A DNA stretch of 35,284 bases from Asanoa siamensis (GTDB taxonomy: Bacteria > Actinomycetota > Actinomycetes > Mycobacteriales > Micromonosporaceae), in assembly GCF_016862555.1 (NCBI RefSeq), contig NZ_BONE01000082.1, forward strand, positions 1-35,284, read 5' to 3'. Below the pieces are notes generated by a model. It was not told the DNA's origin. It did no database searches and worked only from the letters and a program-made list of their open reading frames with translations. Made by a program: the position numbers and the translations under genes. The first letter of the stretch is position 1. Each line of letters begins with the position of its first letter. This document shows, in pieces, positions 21,644 through 28,260 of the stretch.

Positions 21644-21715
21644 GGGCGCGTAGCTCAGCGGAAGAGCACTCGCCTTACAAGCGAGGGGTCGCAGGTTCGA
21701 ACCCTGCCGCGCCCA
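21644..21715 (+). tRNA. tRNA-Val (anticodon TAC), copy 1
   Basis: A complete cloverleaf: acceptor GGGCGCG/CGCGCCC, D arm GCTC/GAGC, anticodon arm CTCGC/GCGAG with loop CTTACAA giving TAC, five-base variable loop, T arm GCAGG/CCTGC with loop TTCGAAC, and discriminator A. CCA is not encoded. A -10-like TAAGCT lies 12 bases upstream (21626-21631). It differs from the second copy at only five positions. Confidence 0.97.
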
Positions 21716-21716
21716 C

Positions 21717-21812
21717 CCGAATCGCTTGCTAGTCCGTGTCCGCTGCGCGGCCACGGACTAGGAAGCGATTCGGCATTCCGATTCCGGGGGCGACCCCCGG
21801 AGGCCCCACGGT
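21717..21812 (+). repeat. Post-tRNA element, copy 1: long hairpin plus conserved 38-base block
   Basis: Directly after the tRNA, 21717-21773 folds into one long hairpin: outer arms CCGAATCGCTT/AAGCGATTCGG, a G-G mismatch, inner arms CTAGTCCGTG/CACGGACTAG, and a CCGC/GCGG tip. The block 21775-21812 is identical to 26148-26185 and contains a second hairpin, CCGGGGG-CGA-CCCCCGG. Compared with copy 2 the arms differ by compensating changes. It may be part of the tRNA primary transcript, a terminator, or a dispersed repeat. It is not coding. Confidence 0.8.
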
Positions 21813-21850
21813 CTGGTGGGTGCGGTCCGCGGTTCTGCGGCGAGATCAGA

Positions 21851-21868
21851 CCCGACGTCAGCGTCGGG
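21851..21868 (+). terminator. Possible terminator downstream of tRNA-Val copy 1
   Basis: CCCGACG-TCAG-CGTCGGG is a 7-bp GC stem with a 4-base loop, preceded by a weaker GGTCTG/CAGACC pairing (21810-21852). There is no U-run. The region 21716-21907 holds no protein gene. Confidence 0.4.
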
Positions 21869-21907
21869 CCTGCCCTCGCGCGGGCGCCGGCTGGCATGAT
21901 CTGTGCG

Positions 21908-22561
21908 GTGAGCGACTGGGGCCGGTTCCTGCGGGAGGTTTCCTGGTTTCTCCGGCCTGGTGAGGCCGTCGAGGTGGGTGCTTCGCGGGCGTGGACGCGC
22001 GGGGCGGTCGACGGGTTGCCGGCACTCTCCTCGTTGCTCGCCGCCACGACCGTGACGCCGGTGTCCGTGGGTGGTGAGCCTTACGAGTTGCTGGCGTGGG
22101 GGGCGGCGGACGAGCGGCGGGGGTGGCTGTGCCGCCCGCCTCAGGACGGGGACGTGGGCGCTGTTTCCGGTGCGCACGAGAGCTTCTGGAAGGTGTGCGG
22201 CGGGATCGTCGAGCGGTTCGGCGAACCCGACACCTGGTGGACCAACCAGAACGAGGTGCTCACGGTCGAGGCCACCCGCGTAGGGGTCGCCGAGGTTCTC
22301 GCGGATTACGCGTGGCTCTGGGAGGACAACGGCCTCACCCTGCCCGTGCGCCCGGAGGACTACTACGCGGTCGCGGTGGAGGCGAACGGGAACCTGACGC
22401 TGGCGCACCGCACCGACGGGCGGTTGCTGCTCTTCGCACCGGACCACGCGTTCGCACACGTCACGCCACTGGCGGGCTGCCCGCCCTACTCACTGCTCAC
22501 GCTCGACCACGTGCCCGACCTGACGGGCTGGATAGAGCAATGCGCCACGGCCTGGCGGTGA
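21908..22561 (+). CDS. Hypothetical protein
   Basis: A cytoplasmic protein of about 217 residues that I cannot assign to a family. It is rich in Trp (WGRFLREVSWF at the start, then ESFWKVCGGIVERFG and TWWTNQNEVL) and ends with DGRLLLFAPDHAFAHVTPLAG and a short helix. The general pattern is loosely like SUKH/Smi1-type small proteins, but I do not claim it. There is no signal peptide. The GTG at 21908 is preferred because a -10-like CATGAT ends 7 bases before it; an in-frame ATG at 21896 would overlap that box. It lies between the tRNA-Val element and the epoxide hydrolase gene, all on one strand. Confidence 0.65.
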   Translation: MSDWGRFLREVSWFLRPGEAVEVGASRAWTRGAVDGLPALSSLLAATTVTPVSVGGEPYELLAWGAADERRGWLCRPPQDGDVGAVSGAHESFWKVCGGIVERFGEPDTWWTNQNEVLTVEATRVGVAEVLADYAWLWEDNGLTLPVRPEDYYAVAVEANGNLTLAHRTDGRLLLFAPDHAFAHVTPLAGCPPYSLLTLDHVPDLTGWIEQCATAWR

Positions 22562-22641
22562 TGGAGTGTAGGCAGTCCCCACCGGTCGCGGAGGCCAAGA
22601 TCCTTCCGTTGAGCCACGGCCGCGCGGTCCCGCCTTTCCCG

Positions 22642-22647
22642 TAGCGT
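22642..22647 (+). promoter_or_regulatory. -10 box TAGCGT of the epoxide hydrolase gene, probably leaderless
   Basis: The hexamer is followed by seven bases and the ATG at 22655; there is no Shine-Dalgarno. The same hexamer and spacing precede the small Cys/His gene at 26482. Confidence 0.5.
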
Positions 22648-22654
22648 TCCGGGC

Positions 22655-23791
22655 ATGCCTGAACCGTTCGTGGCGCGTACCGGGGCCGATGTTCTCGACG
22701 ACCTTCGCCGGCGGTTGCGGGCGACCCGCTGGCCCGACGCGCCCGAGGACGCCGGGTGGTCGGAGGGCACCGATGTCGCGTACCTGCGCGATCTTGTCGC
22801 CTACTGGGCCGATGGCTTCGACTGGCCCGCTCAGGAAGCCGCGCTGAACCGGCTGCCCCGCTACACGACCGATATCGCCGGGCACCACGTCCACTTCGTC
22901 CATGCCCGCGCCGACACCCCCGCGTTGCCGATCGTGCTCAGTCATGGCTGGCCCGACTCGTTCTGGCGTTACACCAAGGTCATTCCGCTGCTGACCGATC
23001 CGGGTGCGCACGGCGGCGATCCCGCCGATGCGTTCGACGTCGTGGTGCCGGACATGCCCGGGTACGGCTACTCCGCCCGGCCCACCGGGACCGCCCCCGA
23101 CACCGTCGCGGTCGCCGGGCTGTGGGCGCGGCTCATGAGCGATCTCGGCTACGACCGGTTCGGTGCGGCCGGCGGTGACATCGGCAGCGGGGTCAGCCGC
23201 TACCTGGCCCTCGACCACCCCGACCGGGTCGTCGCCGTGCACCGCATGGACGCCGGCCTGCCCGTCTACGTCGGCGACCGCGCCGATCTCGCTCCCGAGG
23301 AGCGCGACTTCCTCGACGGTGCCATGGCCTGGGGCATGACGGAGGGCGCGTACGCCGCCATGCACCGGACCAGGCCGCAGACCGCCGCGGTCGGGCTCAC
23401 CGACTCGCCGGCCGGGCTCGCCGCCTGGATCGTGGAGAAGCTGCGTGCCTGGAGCGACTGCGGCGGCGACGTCGAACGCGCCTTCTCCCGCGACGAGATC
23501 CTCACCAACGTCACCATCTACTGGCTCACCGGGACGATCGGCTCAGCCATGCGGATGTACCGCGCGAACGGCGCCATCCCCGCCGCCCAGCACGCCCGCC
23601 GCGTCGAGGTGCCGTCCGGCTTCTCGCTGTTTCCCGCCGACCTCGTGCGGCCGCCGCGGGCCTGGCTCGACCGGGTCGCCAACACCGTGCGCGTCACCGA
23701 GCCCGCGCGCGGCGGCCATTTCGCCCCGTTCGAAGAGCCGCAGGTGTACGCCGAGGAACTGCGCGCGTTCTTCCGACCCGTCCGTCCGTAG
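22655..23791 (+). CDS. Epoxide hydrolase, microsomal-type alpha/beta hydrolase
   Basis: A 378-residue enzyme that opens epoxides to diols through an alkyl-enzyme ester. An N-terminal EHN segment (about 1-85, with RRLRATRWPDAPEDAGW) precedes the alpha/beta-hydrolase fold. Visible residues: oxyanion-hole motif SHGWPDS (96-102), nucleophile Asp175 in AAGGDIGSG, lid tyrosine about Tyr302 in RMYRANG, and the base His355 in GGHFAPFEEP. This is the complete set for the family. There is no signal peptide. The physiological substrate is unknown; neighbours give no pathway. Next on the same strand is the zinc dehydrogenase gene, 80 bases away, with its own likely promoter. Confidence 0.93.
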   Translation: MPEPFVARTGADVLDDLRRRLRATRWPDAPEDAGWSEGTDVAYLRDLVAYWADGFDWPAQEAALNRLPRYTTDIAGHHVHFVHARADTPALPIVLSHGWPDSFWRYTKVIPLLTDPGAHGGDPADAFDVVVPDMPGYGYSARPTGTAPDTVAVAGLWARLMSDLGYDRFGAAGGDIGSGVSRYLALDHPDRVVAVHRMDAGLPVYVGDRADLAPEERDFLDGAMAWGMTEGAYAAMHRTRPQTAAVGLTDSPAGLAAWIVEKLRAWSDCGGDVERAFSRDEILTNVTIYWLTGTIGSAMRMYRANGAIPAAQHARRVEVPSGFSLFPADLVRPPRAWLDRVANTVRVTEPARGGHFAPFEEPQVYAEELRAFFRPVRP

Positions 23792-23871
23792 AACGGGCCG
23801 ATGCCGGTCACGAACGGCGCAATTTTCGGCGCTTCGGGTCGGCGCCGCCGCAGATGGATTACGTTTCGGCC

Positions 23872-25500
23872 GTGGGTGACCTTCTGGACGACTACCGCAA
23901 AGCGGCCGGGCCGCTCCCCCAGCAGCACAGCCTGTGGCGACTGACCGGCCCGGGACTGTCCGACCTGGAACCGCCGGCGGCCGAGCCGTTGCCGGTGCCG
24001 GGCGCCGACGAGTTGCTCGTGCGGCACGACGCCGTCAGCCTGTGCGCCTCCGACGCGAAGATCGCGCGACTCGGCCTCGACCATCCGCGCGTCCGGCGGT
24101 TTCCAGTCGTCCCCGGGCACGAGGTGTCGCTCACGGTGGCGGCCGTGGGTCCACGACTGCGCGACGCGTACGCGCCCGGCGACCGCTTCGTCGTCCAGGC
24201 CGACATGACCGTCGGCGGGGTCGCCCGGGCGTACGGGTACGACCTGCCCGGCGGTCTCGCCCAGTACGCCGTGCTCGGCGCGGAGGCGTTGGCCTACCTC
24301 GTACCCGTGCGGTCCGGCACCGGTTATGCCGAGGCGGCGCTCGCCGAGCCCTGGGCCTGCGTCGAGGCCGCCTACGCCGCTTCCTACCGCAGCACCTGGC
24401 AGGCCGGCGGCACGGTGTGGCTGACCGGCGACGGCGCCGGGGCCGACCTGGGCGCCGCGGCCGGCTGGCGCCCCGACCGGGTGCACCTCGACGTCCGCGA
24501 CGACATTTTCGCCGAACGGGTACGCGCGTGGGCGCACGCGTCCGGCGTGGAAGTGGTCGCCGGCCCACCGCAGGCCGCCGTGGACGACGCCGTGGTGCTC
24601 GGGCCCGATCCCGACCGCGTCGAACGCGCCCTGGCCGCGCTGGCACCACACGGCACCTGCGCCCTGGTCACGGTCGCGCCGTTGCCGCGGCCCGTGCGGG
24701 TCGACGTCGGACGGCTCCACTACGACGGGCTGGCCCTGATGGGCACGGCGCACCAGGACCTTTCGGCCGCGTACACGCCGATCCGCACCGAGCTCGCCCC
24801 CGGCGGACGCCTCTGGCTGCTGGGTGCCGGCGGGCCGATGGGCCGGATGCACCTGCGGCGCGCACTCCAGCGCGACGGGGCGCCGGCGAGCATCATCGCG
24901 AGCGACCGCAGCGGACGCTCGGCGAACACCTTCGGCGGTTTCACCCCGCCGACGGTCACGTTCCTCTCGGAGCGGGAGTGCGGCGACGCGGAGACGCTGG
25001 CGAAGCGGCTGAACGAGGCGACCGGTGGGCTCGGCTTCGACGACGTCGTGGTGGCGGCGCCGAGCGCGCGGGCCGTCGAGGCGGCGTTCGAGCACCTGGC
25101 CGACGGTGGAGTGATCAACCTGTTCGCCGGGCTGCCGCCGGGAACGCTGTGCGCGTGGGACGTCACCGCGGTCGCGCACCGCGGCGTGCGTGCCGTCGGC
25201 ACCAGCGGCTCGTCGGTCGCCGACCTGCGCCGGGCCCGCGACCGCATCGAGGCTGGCGTGCTCCAGCCGAACCGGTCGGTCGCCGCGGTCGCCGGGCTGG
25301 ACGGTGCGCCGGAAGCGCTGCGTGCCGTGGCCGAGAACCGCTTCGGCGGCAAGGTGCTGATCTTCCCCAACCTGAGCCGGCCGCTGCCGCTGACCCCGCT
25401 GGCCGAGCTGGCGGGCGTGCTGCCCGGGGTCGCGGCCCGGTTGGAGCGTGGACACTGGACGGTCGCCGCCGAGGAGGAGCTGCTGCGCGCGCTGATCTGA
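23872..25500 (+). CDS. Zinc-dependent medium-chain dehydrogenase with an extra inserted domain
   Basis: A 542-residue oxidoreductase, well over the usual 340-410. The N-terminal catalytic domain has Cys58 (SLCASD), His83-Glu84 (VPGHE) and Glu159/Cys163 (LAEPWACVEA), the expected catalytic-zinc set; the structural-zinc loop is missing. Residues about 180-310 form a Rossmann-like segment without a proper glycine loop. A second, proper nucleotide-binding loop, LWLLGAGGPMGRMHL, follows at about 313-327, then the rest of the dehydrogenase. The order resembles sorbose-1-phosphate-reductase-like proteins with an insertion. Start: the GTG at 23872 lies 6 bases past TACGTT; an ATG at 23854 is upstream of that box. 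Substrate is unknown. Confidence 0.85.
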   Translation: MGDLLDDYRKAAGPLPQQHSLWRLTGPGLSDLEPPAAEPLPVPGADELLVRHDAVSLCASDAKIARLGLDHPRVRRFPVVPGHEVSLTVAAVGPRLRDAYAPGDRFVVQADMTVGGVARAYGYDLPGGLAQYAVLGAEALAYLVPVRSGTGYAEAALAEPWACVEAAYAASYRSTWQAGGTVWLTGDGAGADLGAAAGWRPDRVHLDVRDDIFAERVRAWAHASGVEVVAGPPQAAVDDAVVLGPDPDRVERALAALAPHGTCALVTVAPLPRPVRVDVGRLHYDGLALMGTAHQDLSAAYTPIRTELAPGGRLWLLGAGGPMGRMHLRRALQRDGAPASIIASDRSGRSANTFGGFTPPTVTFLSERECGDAETLAKRLNEATGGLGFDDVVVAAPSARAVEAAFEHLADGGVINLFAGLPPGTLCAWDVTAVAHRGVRAVGTSGSSVADLRRARDRIEAGVLQPNRSVAAVAGLDGAPEALRAVAENRFGGKVLIFPNLSRPLPLTPLAELAGVLPGVAARLERGHWTVAAEEELLRALI

Positions 25501-25525
25501 GCGCCACACAGTATTCTCCGGCGCC

Positions 25526-25990
25526 ATGAGCTACGACCTGACGTTCCTGCCCAAGACCGACGACCAGTCCTGGGAAGAGGCGATGGCGGCCGCCGAAGAG
25601 GCCGAGGACGGCGACGCGCCGAGTGCGCAGGTGTGGGCGGAGCTGCTCGCGGCCGCCCGGCAGGAGCTCGGCGAGGTGGAGGTCTTCGAGAGCGAGGACT
25701 CGTACGAGCTGGACCACGAGCCGTCCGGCATCCAGCTCAGCTACTACGCCGGCGAGGCGGCGATCTCGGTTCCCTACTGGCACCGCGCCGAGCGGGCCCG
25801 GGCCGTCGTCGACTCGATCTACCGGCTCGGCGCGGCGGTCGAGCGGTTGACGGGGCTGCGGGGCTTCGACCCGCAGCTCGAGCTGCCGCTGACGGAGGCC
25901 GCCGCGCGGCACGATCTCGCGGTCGAGACGTTCGACCGGGTCGCCGCCTCCTTCGCCGAACGCGGCATCGAGAGCCCCAGCCACCATTGA
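25526..25990 (+). CDS. Small acidic hypothetical protein
   Basis: A 154-residue protein, strongly acidic in its first third (SWEEAMAAAEEAEDGDA), then a beta-strand run (GIQLSYYAGEAAISVPYW) and a helical end. Codon use is typical of the genome and the frame is clearly coding. I recognise it only as a conserved-looking actinobacterial hypothetical; no catalytic motif is seen. A -10 box TATTCT (25512-25517) lies 8 bases before the ATG, and there is no ribosome site, so it may be leaderless. It is the last gene before tRNA-Val copy 2. Confidence 0.78.
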   Translation: MSYDLTFLPKTDDQSWEEAMAAAEEAEDGDAPSAQVWAELLAAARQELGEVEVFESEDSYELDHEPSGIQLSYYAGEAAISVPYWHRAERARAVVDSIYRLGAAVERLTGLRGFDPQLELPLTEAAARHDLAVETFDRVAASFAERGIESPSHH

Positions 25991-26016
25991 CGACGACCGT
26001 TACGGTGGGCCGGTGG

Positions 26017-26088
26017 GGGCGCGTAGCTCAGCGGTAGAGCACTCGCCTTACAAGCGAGAAGTCGCAGGTTCGAAACCTGCCGCGCCCA
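26017..26088 (+). tRNA. tRNA-Val (anticodon TAC), copy 2
   Basis: The same cloverleaf as copy 1, with anticodon TAC in loop CTTACAA. It differs by one D-loop base, three successive bases at the start of the variable loop region reduced to two changes (GG to AA), and the last T-loop base (TTCGAAA), which is normally a pyrimidine. CCA is not encoded. A -10-like TACGGT lies 10 bases upstream (26001-26006). Confidence 0.96.
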
Positions 26089-26185
26089 CCGAATGGCTTG
26101 CTAAATCATGTCCGCTGGCGCGGCCACGATTTAGGAAGCCATTCGTGATTCCGATTCCGGGGGCGACCCCCGGAGGCCCCACGGT
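26089..26185 (+). repeat. Post-tRNA element, copy 2: long hairpin plus conserved 38-base block
   Basis: Outer arms GAATGGCTT/AAGCCATTC (26091-26099 with 26136-26144), inner arms CTAAATCATG/CACGATTTAG with one A-C mismatch, and a CCGC/GCGG tip. The 38-base block at 26148-26185 is identical to that of copy 1. Four base pairs differ from copy 1 by paired changes that keep the stem. Confidence 0.8.
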
Positions 26186-26257
26186 GGGTGGGCGCCGTGC
26201 GCGGTATGCGCGAGGGCAGGACGTCGCGTCGGCTGTCACCTGACGCGTCCACCGTCC

Positions 26258-26482: not shown

Positions 26483-26639
26483 CCGCGGCACGCTAGGAGC
26501 GGCCGGCCGCGGCCGCGGGGCCGATGCGGGAAACCGGGCCTGCCGGCGGCGATCGTTACGGATCGGAGACGCGGCGATCTCGATCACATTCGTGGGAGCG
26601 GTTCACCAGGCGTAACACGCGGCGGCTTTGATTCGCGGC

Positions 26640-27504: not shown

Positions 27505-28260
27505 ATGACACACGAACTCTTCCGGTCCGGCCGTCCGCTGGTGCTGCCGAACGCCTGGGACGTGGCCAGCGCCAAGCTGATCGAGCGGGCCGGCGCGGTC
27601 GCGATCGCCACGACCAGCGCCGGCGTCGCCTGGGGGCTGGGCCACCGCGACGGTGGCGCGATCGGCCGGGCGGCGGCGCTCGAGATGGTGGCCCGGATCG
27701 TGGCCGCCACGTCCGTGCCGGTCACCGCCGACGTCGAGGACGGCTACGGCGACGTCGCCGGCACCGTCAAGGGCGTCGTCGATGCCGGAGCCGTCGGCGT
27801 CAACATCGAGGACGGCATCCACGCCGAGCCCGACCGGATCGCGACCGCCCGCCGGACCGCCGGCACCGACCTGTTCCTCAACGCCCGCGTCGACACGTAC
27901 CTGCTGGGGATCGGCGCTCCGGAGAGGCGCCTCGACGAGACCCTCGACCGGGCCGCGGCCTACGTCGAGGCCGGCGCGGACGGCATCTTCGTCCCGGGCG
28001 TGACCGACGCCGACACCATCGCCGCCCTCGCGAAGGCCCTGCCCGTGCCGCTGAACGTCATGGCCGGCCCCGGCTCACCCGCCGTCGCGGACCTGGTCGC
28101 CCTCGGCGTCGCCCGGGTCAGCGTCGGGCCGGCGATCACCCTCGCCGCGTACGCCGCGACCCGTCGAGCCGCCCGCGAACTGCTCACGACCGGCACCTAC
28201 GGCGCGCTCGACGGCGACACCCCGAGCGTCGCGGACATCGAGATGCTGATGGGGCAGTAA
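27505..28260 (+). CDS. Isocitrate lyase/PEP mutase family enzyme
   Basis: A 251-residue TIM-barrel enzyme that acts on C-C or P-C bonds next to a carboxylate. Visible family marks: PNAWDVASAKL (about 15-25), TTSAG (36-40), the magnesium-binding ADVEDGYG (75-82), GVNIEDG (98-104) and NARVDTYL (126-133). The KKCGH motif of true isocitrate lyase is absent, so it is more like the short phosphonomutase, oxaloacetase or 2-methylisocitrate-lyase-like members; the substrate is unknown. It is on the same strand as the GNAT gene and may be cotranscribed. The next gene starts only 18 bases later. Confidence 0.88.
   Translation: MTHELFRSGRPLVLPNAWDVASAKLIERAGAVAIATTSAGVAWGLGHRDGGAIGRAAALEMVARIVAATSVPVTADVEDGYGDVAGTVKGVVDAGAVGVNIEDGIHAEPDRIATARRTAGTDLFLNARVDTYLLGIGAPERRLDETLDRAAAYVEAGADGIFVPGVTDADTIAALAKALPVPLNVMAGPGSPAVADLVALGVARVSVGPAITLAAYAATRRAARELLTTGTYGALDGDTPSVADIEMLMGQ

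Follow-up and report, generated by a model that had tools for sequence, protein, structure and literature searches.

The window analysed here, a stretch of 35,284 nucleotides that makes up one whole contig (NZ_BONE01000082.1) of the Asanoa siamensis genome (8.78 Mb, 219 contigs), carries two tRNA-Val(TAC) genes, each followed by the same module of hairpins. That this hairpin element is a real, conserved RNA structure is well supported, and it occurs after many tRNA genes of soil actinobacteria. As to its role, we lean, with limited confidence, towards a composite terminator of tRNA and transfer-messenger RNA (tmRNA) genes, the same module forming the constant right half of a site at which blocks of genes are inserted. 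The terminator part draws on folding, covariation and position, and the insertion-site part is suggested by anatomy and synteny.

The module spans about 155 nt and consists of hairpin A, hairpin B, a conserved stretch CCCCACGGT..GGTGGG and a variable third hairpin D, in that order. Hairpin A (56–57 nt) lies directly 3' of each tRNA-Val of the window and combines fast-changing arms with a conserved tip, while hairpin B reads GGGGG-CGA-CCCCC. An earlier, sequence-only reading of this DNA had described a hairpin behind both tRNA genes, followed by an identical 38-base tail, with four compensated pairs and one uncompensated change between the copies. Sequence, folding and alignment bear this out: the tails are identical over all 38 bases (Table 1), the stems differ by the paired changes C-G to G-C, G-C to A-T, T-A to A-T and C-G to T-A, and the single break in pairing is one G-C to A.C. 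The element is larger than described there, since hairpin B, the conserved stretch and the third hairpin also belong to it; the similarity of the copies extends about 155–165 nt past each tRNA. The A+B stretches (93 and 94 nt) are predicted to fold with -63.3 and -51.6 kcal/mol (z of -7.4 and -5.6), and none of 200 shuffles of either stretch folded as well.

Pairing of the arms was counted on a genus set of 20 copies from six Asanoa genomes (25-pair structure, 500 cells), because in the mixed alignment automatic consensus folding gave a poor placement of the arms of A. Arm A was paired in 96.8% of the cells compared with 84.7% after shuffling, a value that none of 500 shuffles reached, and shifting the partner by 1–3 columns left only 30–44% paired. 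Double-change cells numbered 63 against 24.6 in shuffled sets and covariation was 0.355 against 0.150; neither the 10 pairs with double changes (95 of 500 shuffles) nor the 16 pair types (480 of 500) were unusual. A second set comprised 82 nonredundant hairpins with the tip GCGGAAAGCGC, mostly from other genera, with 749 Watson-Crick cells out of 984 compared with 494 in shuffled sets; since the tip was the search key and only hairpins with at least 9 of 14 matching pairs were kept, tip and pairing prove nothing in this set. The share of G.T among G.T and A.C cells is independent of the pair-matching filter: with 103 G.T and 21 A.C cells it reached 0.83, compared with a shuffled mean of 0.67, and none of 1,000 shuffles was as high. 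Such an excess of G.T over A.C beyond chance indicates selection on the RNA of the tRNA-sense strand. The covariation in the 20 copies, the G.T bias and the presence of copies behind unrelated tRNAs in relatives all agree with the earlier proposal that the RNA is under selection and that the copies are not two duplicates drifting apart. Covariation with a conserved tip and tail would also suit a stable small RNA, or a special tail of the tRNA precursor, that serves some purpose other than termination. We consider this improbable: in Rfam only tRNA and tmRNA families reached gathering scores, the other E-value matches being weak and below them, and no single host transcript is common to the copies because the hosts comprise many tRNA kinds, tmRNA and protein genes.

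A DNA search of the A. siamensis genome gave 28 matches at E ≤10, seven of them below 1e-4. Read by eye, A+B stands behind seven of the 68 tRNA and tmRNA predictions collected in this genome, namely Val(TAC) twice, Leu(TAG), Asn(GTT), Gly(CCC), Val(CAC) and tmRNA; further copies follow a tRNA 3' fragment (contig C41), a mimic of a tRNA end (C75) and a protein gene (C25). A 130-base query found matches in 16 of 61 relatives, with 6–11 matches in each of all six genus genomes, and a tip-gap-B pattern occurred in 40 of 200 genomes of the family, with none in the reversed control. Directly behind an intact tRNA or tmRNA were 25 of 30 loci of this pattern, and the remaining five follow the 3' half of a tRNA-Val, the end of a tRNA-Ala, a mimic of the tmRNA end and, in two cases, coding genes. 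In named genomes, 37 of 80 loci among the matches listed have an intact tRNA or tmRNA 18–26 nt before the tip; 19 of these 80 had no hairpin by eye (17 outside Actinomycetota by title), and none of the 19 was behind a tRNA. The orientation was always that of the tRNA in the loci read. It had been asked earlier whether copies sit only after tRNA genes; they do not, since copies also stand behind tRNA fragments, 27-bp mimics of tRNA ends and some protein genes, with a recurrent coding context in several Actinoplanes (loci L113, L128, L174 and L281), where the unit ends a gene that, judging by its letters, we take to be rpoZ.

Tandem unit copies of about 120–138 bp each, with no genes between them, were seen behind tmRNA (L018:352-734), behind tRNA-Phe (L022:1501-1757) and at L125:364-640. 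Gene-free tandems of this kind would be expected of a dispersed, mobile palindrome that inserts on its own at the 3' ends of tRNA genes. Such an origin is nevertheless very improbable, given the constant tRNA orientation in the loci read and the recurrence of one unit type at shared tRNA-Leu and tRNA-Val loci of several species. Among the possibilities listed by the sequence-only reading, a special terminator fits best, and the dispersed palindromic repeat is the one that orientation and position argue against.

As in intrinsic terminators, a stable GC-rich hairpin stands directly behind a transcribed gene, and the hairpins most likely act as a transcription stop signal. The U-tract-less intrinsic and hairpin-cluster terminators presented in part of PMC8355165 also have adjacent GC-rich hairpins where a transcription unit ends; here, in contrast, tip, spacer, B loop and tail keep their sequence from genus to genus, and the unit is found again at block boundaries.

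The window itself provides one such boundary pair, as its two units bracket an apparently inserted 4,373-bp block of four genes and the second tRNA-Val, a point that the sequence-only reading had not made. The three genes upstream of the first tRNA-Val are syntenic in four relatives, the flank gene at 27505 is found in all four, 2.5–8 kb behind a single tRNA-Val, and the flank gene at 26628 in one; none of the four block genes was found at the tRNA-Val loci of these relatives within the 16–18-kb stretches compared. The content between tRNA-Val and the flank varies among the genomes compared. At the tRNA-Leu(TAG) locus, A. siamensis and relatives G001, G003 and G005 are alike up to 135–170 nt behind the tRNA, and past this point the stretches compared gave no match on the same strand at E 1e-10 apart from further unit copies, of which G001 has two, 4.2 and 13.3 kb on. 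We propose that the module, with A, B, the conserved stretch and D acting as RNA on the tRNA-sense strand, would accept blocks of one to several genes between the tRNA or tmRNA 3' end and itself. Each block would then start with the module and end with a tRNA 3' end, supplied either by a complete tRNA (the case of the window) or by a 27-bp mimic; because insertion would take place between tRNA end and module, the tRNA would keep its terminator and the module would recur at every block boundary. At L303:3981-4457 (G002), tRNA-Ala(GGC) with a unit is followed at most about 285 bp on by tRNA-Leu(TAG) with a unit, as if a block consisted of a tRNA gene alone.

The mimic is 27 bp long, 5 bp longer than the real tRNA end (22), and is usually followed by the hairpin module; the tRNA-end core reads CACCTCCAC. 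The loci compared, some of which came from tRNA searches, hold 156 unique units, 91 behind an intact tRNA or tmRNA and 65 elsewhere. In the former the distance from GTTC to CCAC was 22 in 29 units, 19 in seven and 20 in one (54 unscorable), while in the latter it was 27 in 23, 22 in seven, mostly true tRNA fragments, and 19 in two (33 unscorable); the length of 27 is thus found in 23 of 32 scorable units without a tRNA and in none of 37 with one. Across 18 ssrA regions a strict mimic expression gave 10 matches at length 27 and none at 19 other lengths (antisense, one match at length 18), and a loose one gave 15 at 27, 15 at 22 and 0–4 elsewhere (antisense, 0–5 throughout). All 14 strict sites of the family search have 6 free bases, where 4–7 were allowed. 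Mimics were found in Asanoa, Actinoplanes and Catenuloplanes, the latter two also members of the Micromonosporaceae, and in one genome of another family. Their layout of two 9-bp blocks with a variable centre, partly fixed by the search expressions used, resembles the core site of a tyrosine recombinase; the conserved left block is GTTCRAG. In Asanoa a longer left arm is conserved, occurring 13 times in five of six genomes. Two other explanations found little support: the left arm of the mimic gave no tRNA match in seven loci, and the mimic is probably not the start of an antisense gene (reverse strand VEVLSAYLN). In 31 Actinoplanes-type arms there was little conservation beyond about 39 nt and a codon-position signal at 64–90 nt was absent (0.68/0.68/0.68), although frame 0 had 18 stops and the two other frames 39 and 8. 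Slightly higher variation at third positions (0.257/0.294/0.340) was seen in 12 Asanoa arms, where an antisense gene may still be considered.

The clearest array lies behind the tmRNA of Actinoplanes sp. KI2 (G224), where seven units follow one another as direct repeats, spaced 0.9–3.3 kb. The first is the tmRNA's own, four have a strict mimic, one has an altered mimic and one has none. This is a row of small gene blocks, each ending in a site of one orientation, as in integrons and in CALINs, their arrays lacking the integrase. By Pfam the blocks encode VapBC, a YceI-like protein and YoeB, and by letters, or by Pfam totals without a named member, TetR, SDR, acyltransferase-like and methionyl-tRNA synthetase proteins; among 66 block proteins seven matched Phd/YefM antitoxin, six PIN and three YoeB, several of these representing one block shared between species. 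In PADLOC the matches were scattered over 24 families, mostly with one protein each. At least one 27-nt mimic was found, by the expression used, in nine of the 18 ssrA regions, which gives no prevalence because the genomes were partly chosen through earlier search matches. A conserved downstream gene was called in 13 of the 18 regions, at distances of 2.0 to 21.3 kb from ssrA.

One block is shared between arrays in a manner that marks its boundary. The VapBC blocks of G224 and G190 are 82% alike from the tmRNA core onward and not left of it, and the likeness stops short of the next core, by 24 bp in G190 and by about 110 bp in G224. Both arrays also have in common a gene further to the right (75%), which places them at one and the same chromosomal locus; in G224 the first block behind tmRNA is VapBC, which in G190 lies about 10.5 kb from tmRNA. 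Loci of VapC relatives have a tmRNA close by in seven of 30 cases and a unit in six of 30. In L356, L359 and L369, from other genera, VapC relatives lie about 15–85 bp from the 3' end of tRNA-Leu(TAG) or tRNA-Met, with no unit.

Toxin-antitoxin blocks are also known from integrons. We tentatively consider an integron-like capture system of actinobacteria, in which small integrase-less blocks carrying toxin-antitoxin pairs, enzymes or whole tRNA genes would be inserted by a putative recombinase at tRNA and tmRNA 3' ends, the site being the 27-bp mimic with the hairpin terminator module. Site-specific recombination would then depend on an enzyme acting in trans, and the blocks may still be mobile today. 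The integrons and CALINs presented in part of PMC11389934 are alike in their row of blocks, each ending in a repeated site by a long hairpin; here, by contrast, the arrays are anchored at tRNA or tmRNA, and the integron integrase profile TIGR02249 had no match over the cut-off in any of 12 genomes. Judged by its letters, the conserved left block GTTCRAG departs from the GTTRRRY box of attC sites. A tyrosine recombinase at C101:20006-21031 of A. siamensis, near tRNA-Leu(GAG) at C101:21613-21696, is 95% identical to one beside the conserved left arm in G001 (C6) and was found in seven of 15 genomes searched; the one beside that arm was rejected as the array enzyme, with no match at E 1e-20 in eight of the 15, G224 among them.

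The alternative that hairpins are terminators only is doubtful but has to be weighed. A-B would then be a strong tRNA and tmRNA terminator kept alike by gene conversion and by duplication with tRNA genes, and the blocks would stem from ordinary island accretion or from recA-type recombination between tRNA-plus-terminator repeats, hairpins uninvolved. It would explain A-B behind protein genes with no array in sight, the whole tRNA-Val at the end of the window block could be obtained by simple duplication, and true tRNA 3' fragments of ordinary islands do exist in A. siamensis, as on C41. It does not account for an exact 27-nt mimic in three genera and a genome of another family, for block homology that starts at the core, or for arrays in which no tyrosine recombinase was matched. 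The tRNA and tmRNA genomic islands presented in part of PMC4383910 (Islander) share the intact left tRNA and the displaced tRNA end at the right. The arrays differ in their short blocks, with no recombinase match inside them, in the conserved hairpin module that stands to the right of each of the two ends, and in the right end itself, which instead of a plain fragment is a mimic (27 nt, not 22) or a complete tRNA. The C41 region (about 50.5–64.6 kb; L005, L065) holds an intact tRNA-Ala(GGC) and, 14 kb away on the same strand, a 3' fragment of tRNA-Ala that has an A-B unit; a recombinase-like match is located at C41:62821. This is probably an island that pushed the old tRNA terminator away.

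Several observations weigh against a terminator module that doubles as half of an insertion site. No U tract stands directly 3' of the stem in the window copies, where stem A is followed by GCATTCC or TGATTCC and B by GGCCCC; short T runs occur in some copies from other genera. The window block ends in a whole tRNA and not a mimic, the second unit at C19 of A. siamensis and some other units are truncated, and some left arms have no A-B behind them. The strict mimic is rare, being present in 11 of 300 evenly drawn genomes of the family (reversed control, none), one of which, G290, appears to be the same genome as G224. In the 12 genomes searched, no match of the tyrosine-recombinase profile lies within the arrays. 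Nor did the queries tried point to phages or plasmids as a home: the mimic pattern gave no match in viral contigs, the Actinoplanes-type unit none in plasmids and phages, and the Asanoa-type unit none in plasmids (phages were searched for the Actinoplanes type only). Finally, VapBC stands by tmRNA in several Actinoplanes and the right-flank gene is shared, so that inheritance at one locus explains much of that likeness. In the open-access literature, judged by title or abstract start, no description of the element was found; subscription journals were outside this scope.

Two further observations concern the tRNA genes of A. siamensis. On C2:131174-133567 (L091), 17 of the 65 tRNA matches of the genome lie within 2.4 kb as a tRNA gene array, and at C95:15211-15282 (L086) ARAGORN called a tRNA with anticodon CTA (named Pyl), which could be spurious or could represent a suppressor-like tRNA. 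The features of the window are listed in Table 1.

Table 1 Features around the two tRNA-Val(TAC) genes of the window.
Feature	Position	Strand	Comparison
tRNA-Val(TAC) copy 1	21644..21717	+	upstream genes syntenic in four relatives
Hairpin A copy 1, long covarying stem with conserved tip	21717..21773	+	
38-base tail copy 1, hairpin B inside at ~21782-21802	21775..21812	+	
Unit remainder copy 1, conserved stretch (its second half) and hairpin D	21813..21880, end approximate	+	
Apparently inserted block, 4,373 bp, tRNA end to tRNA end	21718..26090	+	the four genes inside lack a homologue at the tRNA-Val loci of four relatives, where the upstream genes have one
221-aa protein, no Pfam match	21896..22561	+	
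378-aa epoxide-hydrolase-like protein (EHN, Abhydrolase_1)	22655..23791	+	
548-aa zinc-type alcohol-dehydrogenase-like protein	23854..25500	+	
154-aa protein, no Pfam match	25526..25990	+	
tRNA-Val(TAC) copy 2, right end of block	26017..26090	+	
Hairpin A copy 2	26090..26145	+	
38-base tail copy 2, hairpin B inside at ~26155-26175	26148..26185	+	
Unit remainder copy 2	26186..26245, end approximate	+	

The composite terminator offers a possible reason why tRNA terminators in these bacteria resemble one another in sequence and not in shape alone, and the module may serve as a marker for block boundaries. If blocks are indeed captured in the manner of integron cassettes, actinobacteria, which are major antibiotic makers, would collect genes behind their tRNAs while leaving the tRNA unharmed, and tRNA genes themselves could travel in such blocks.

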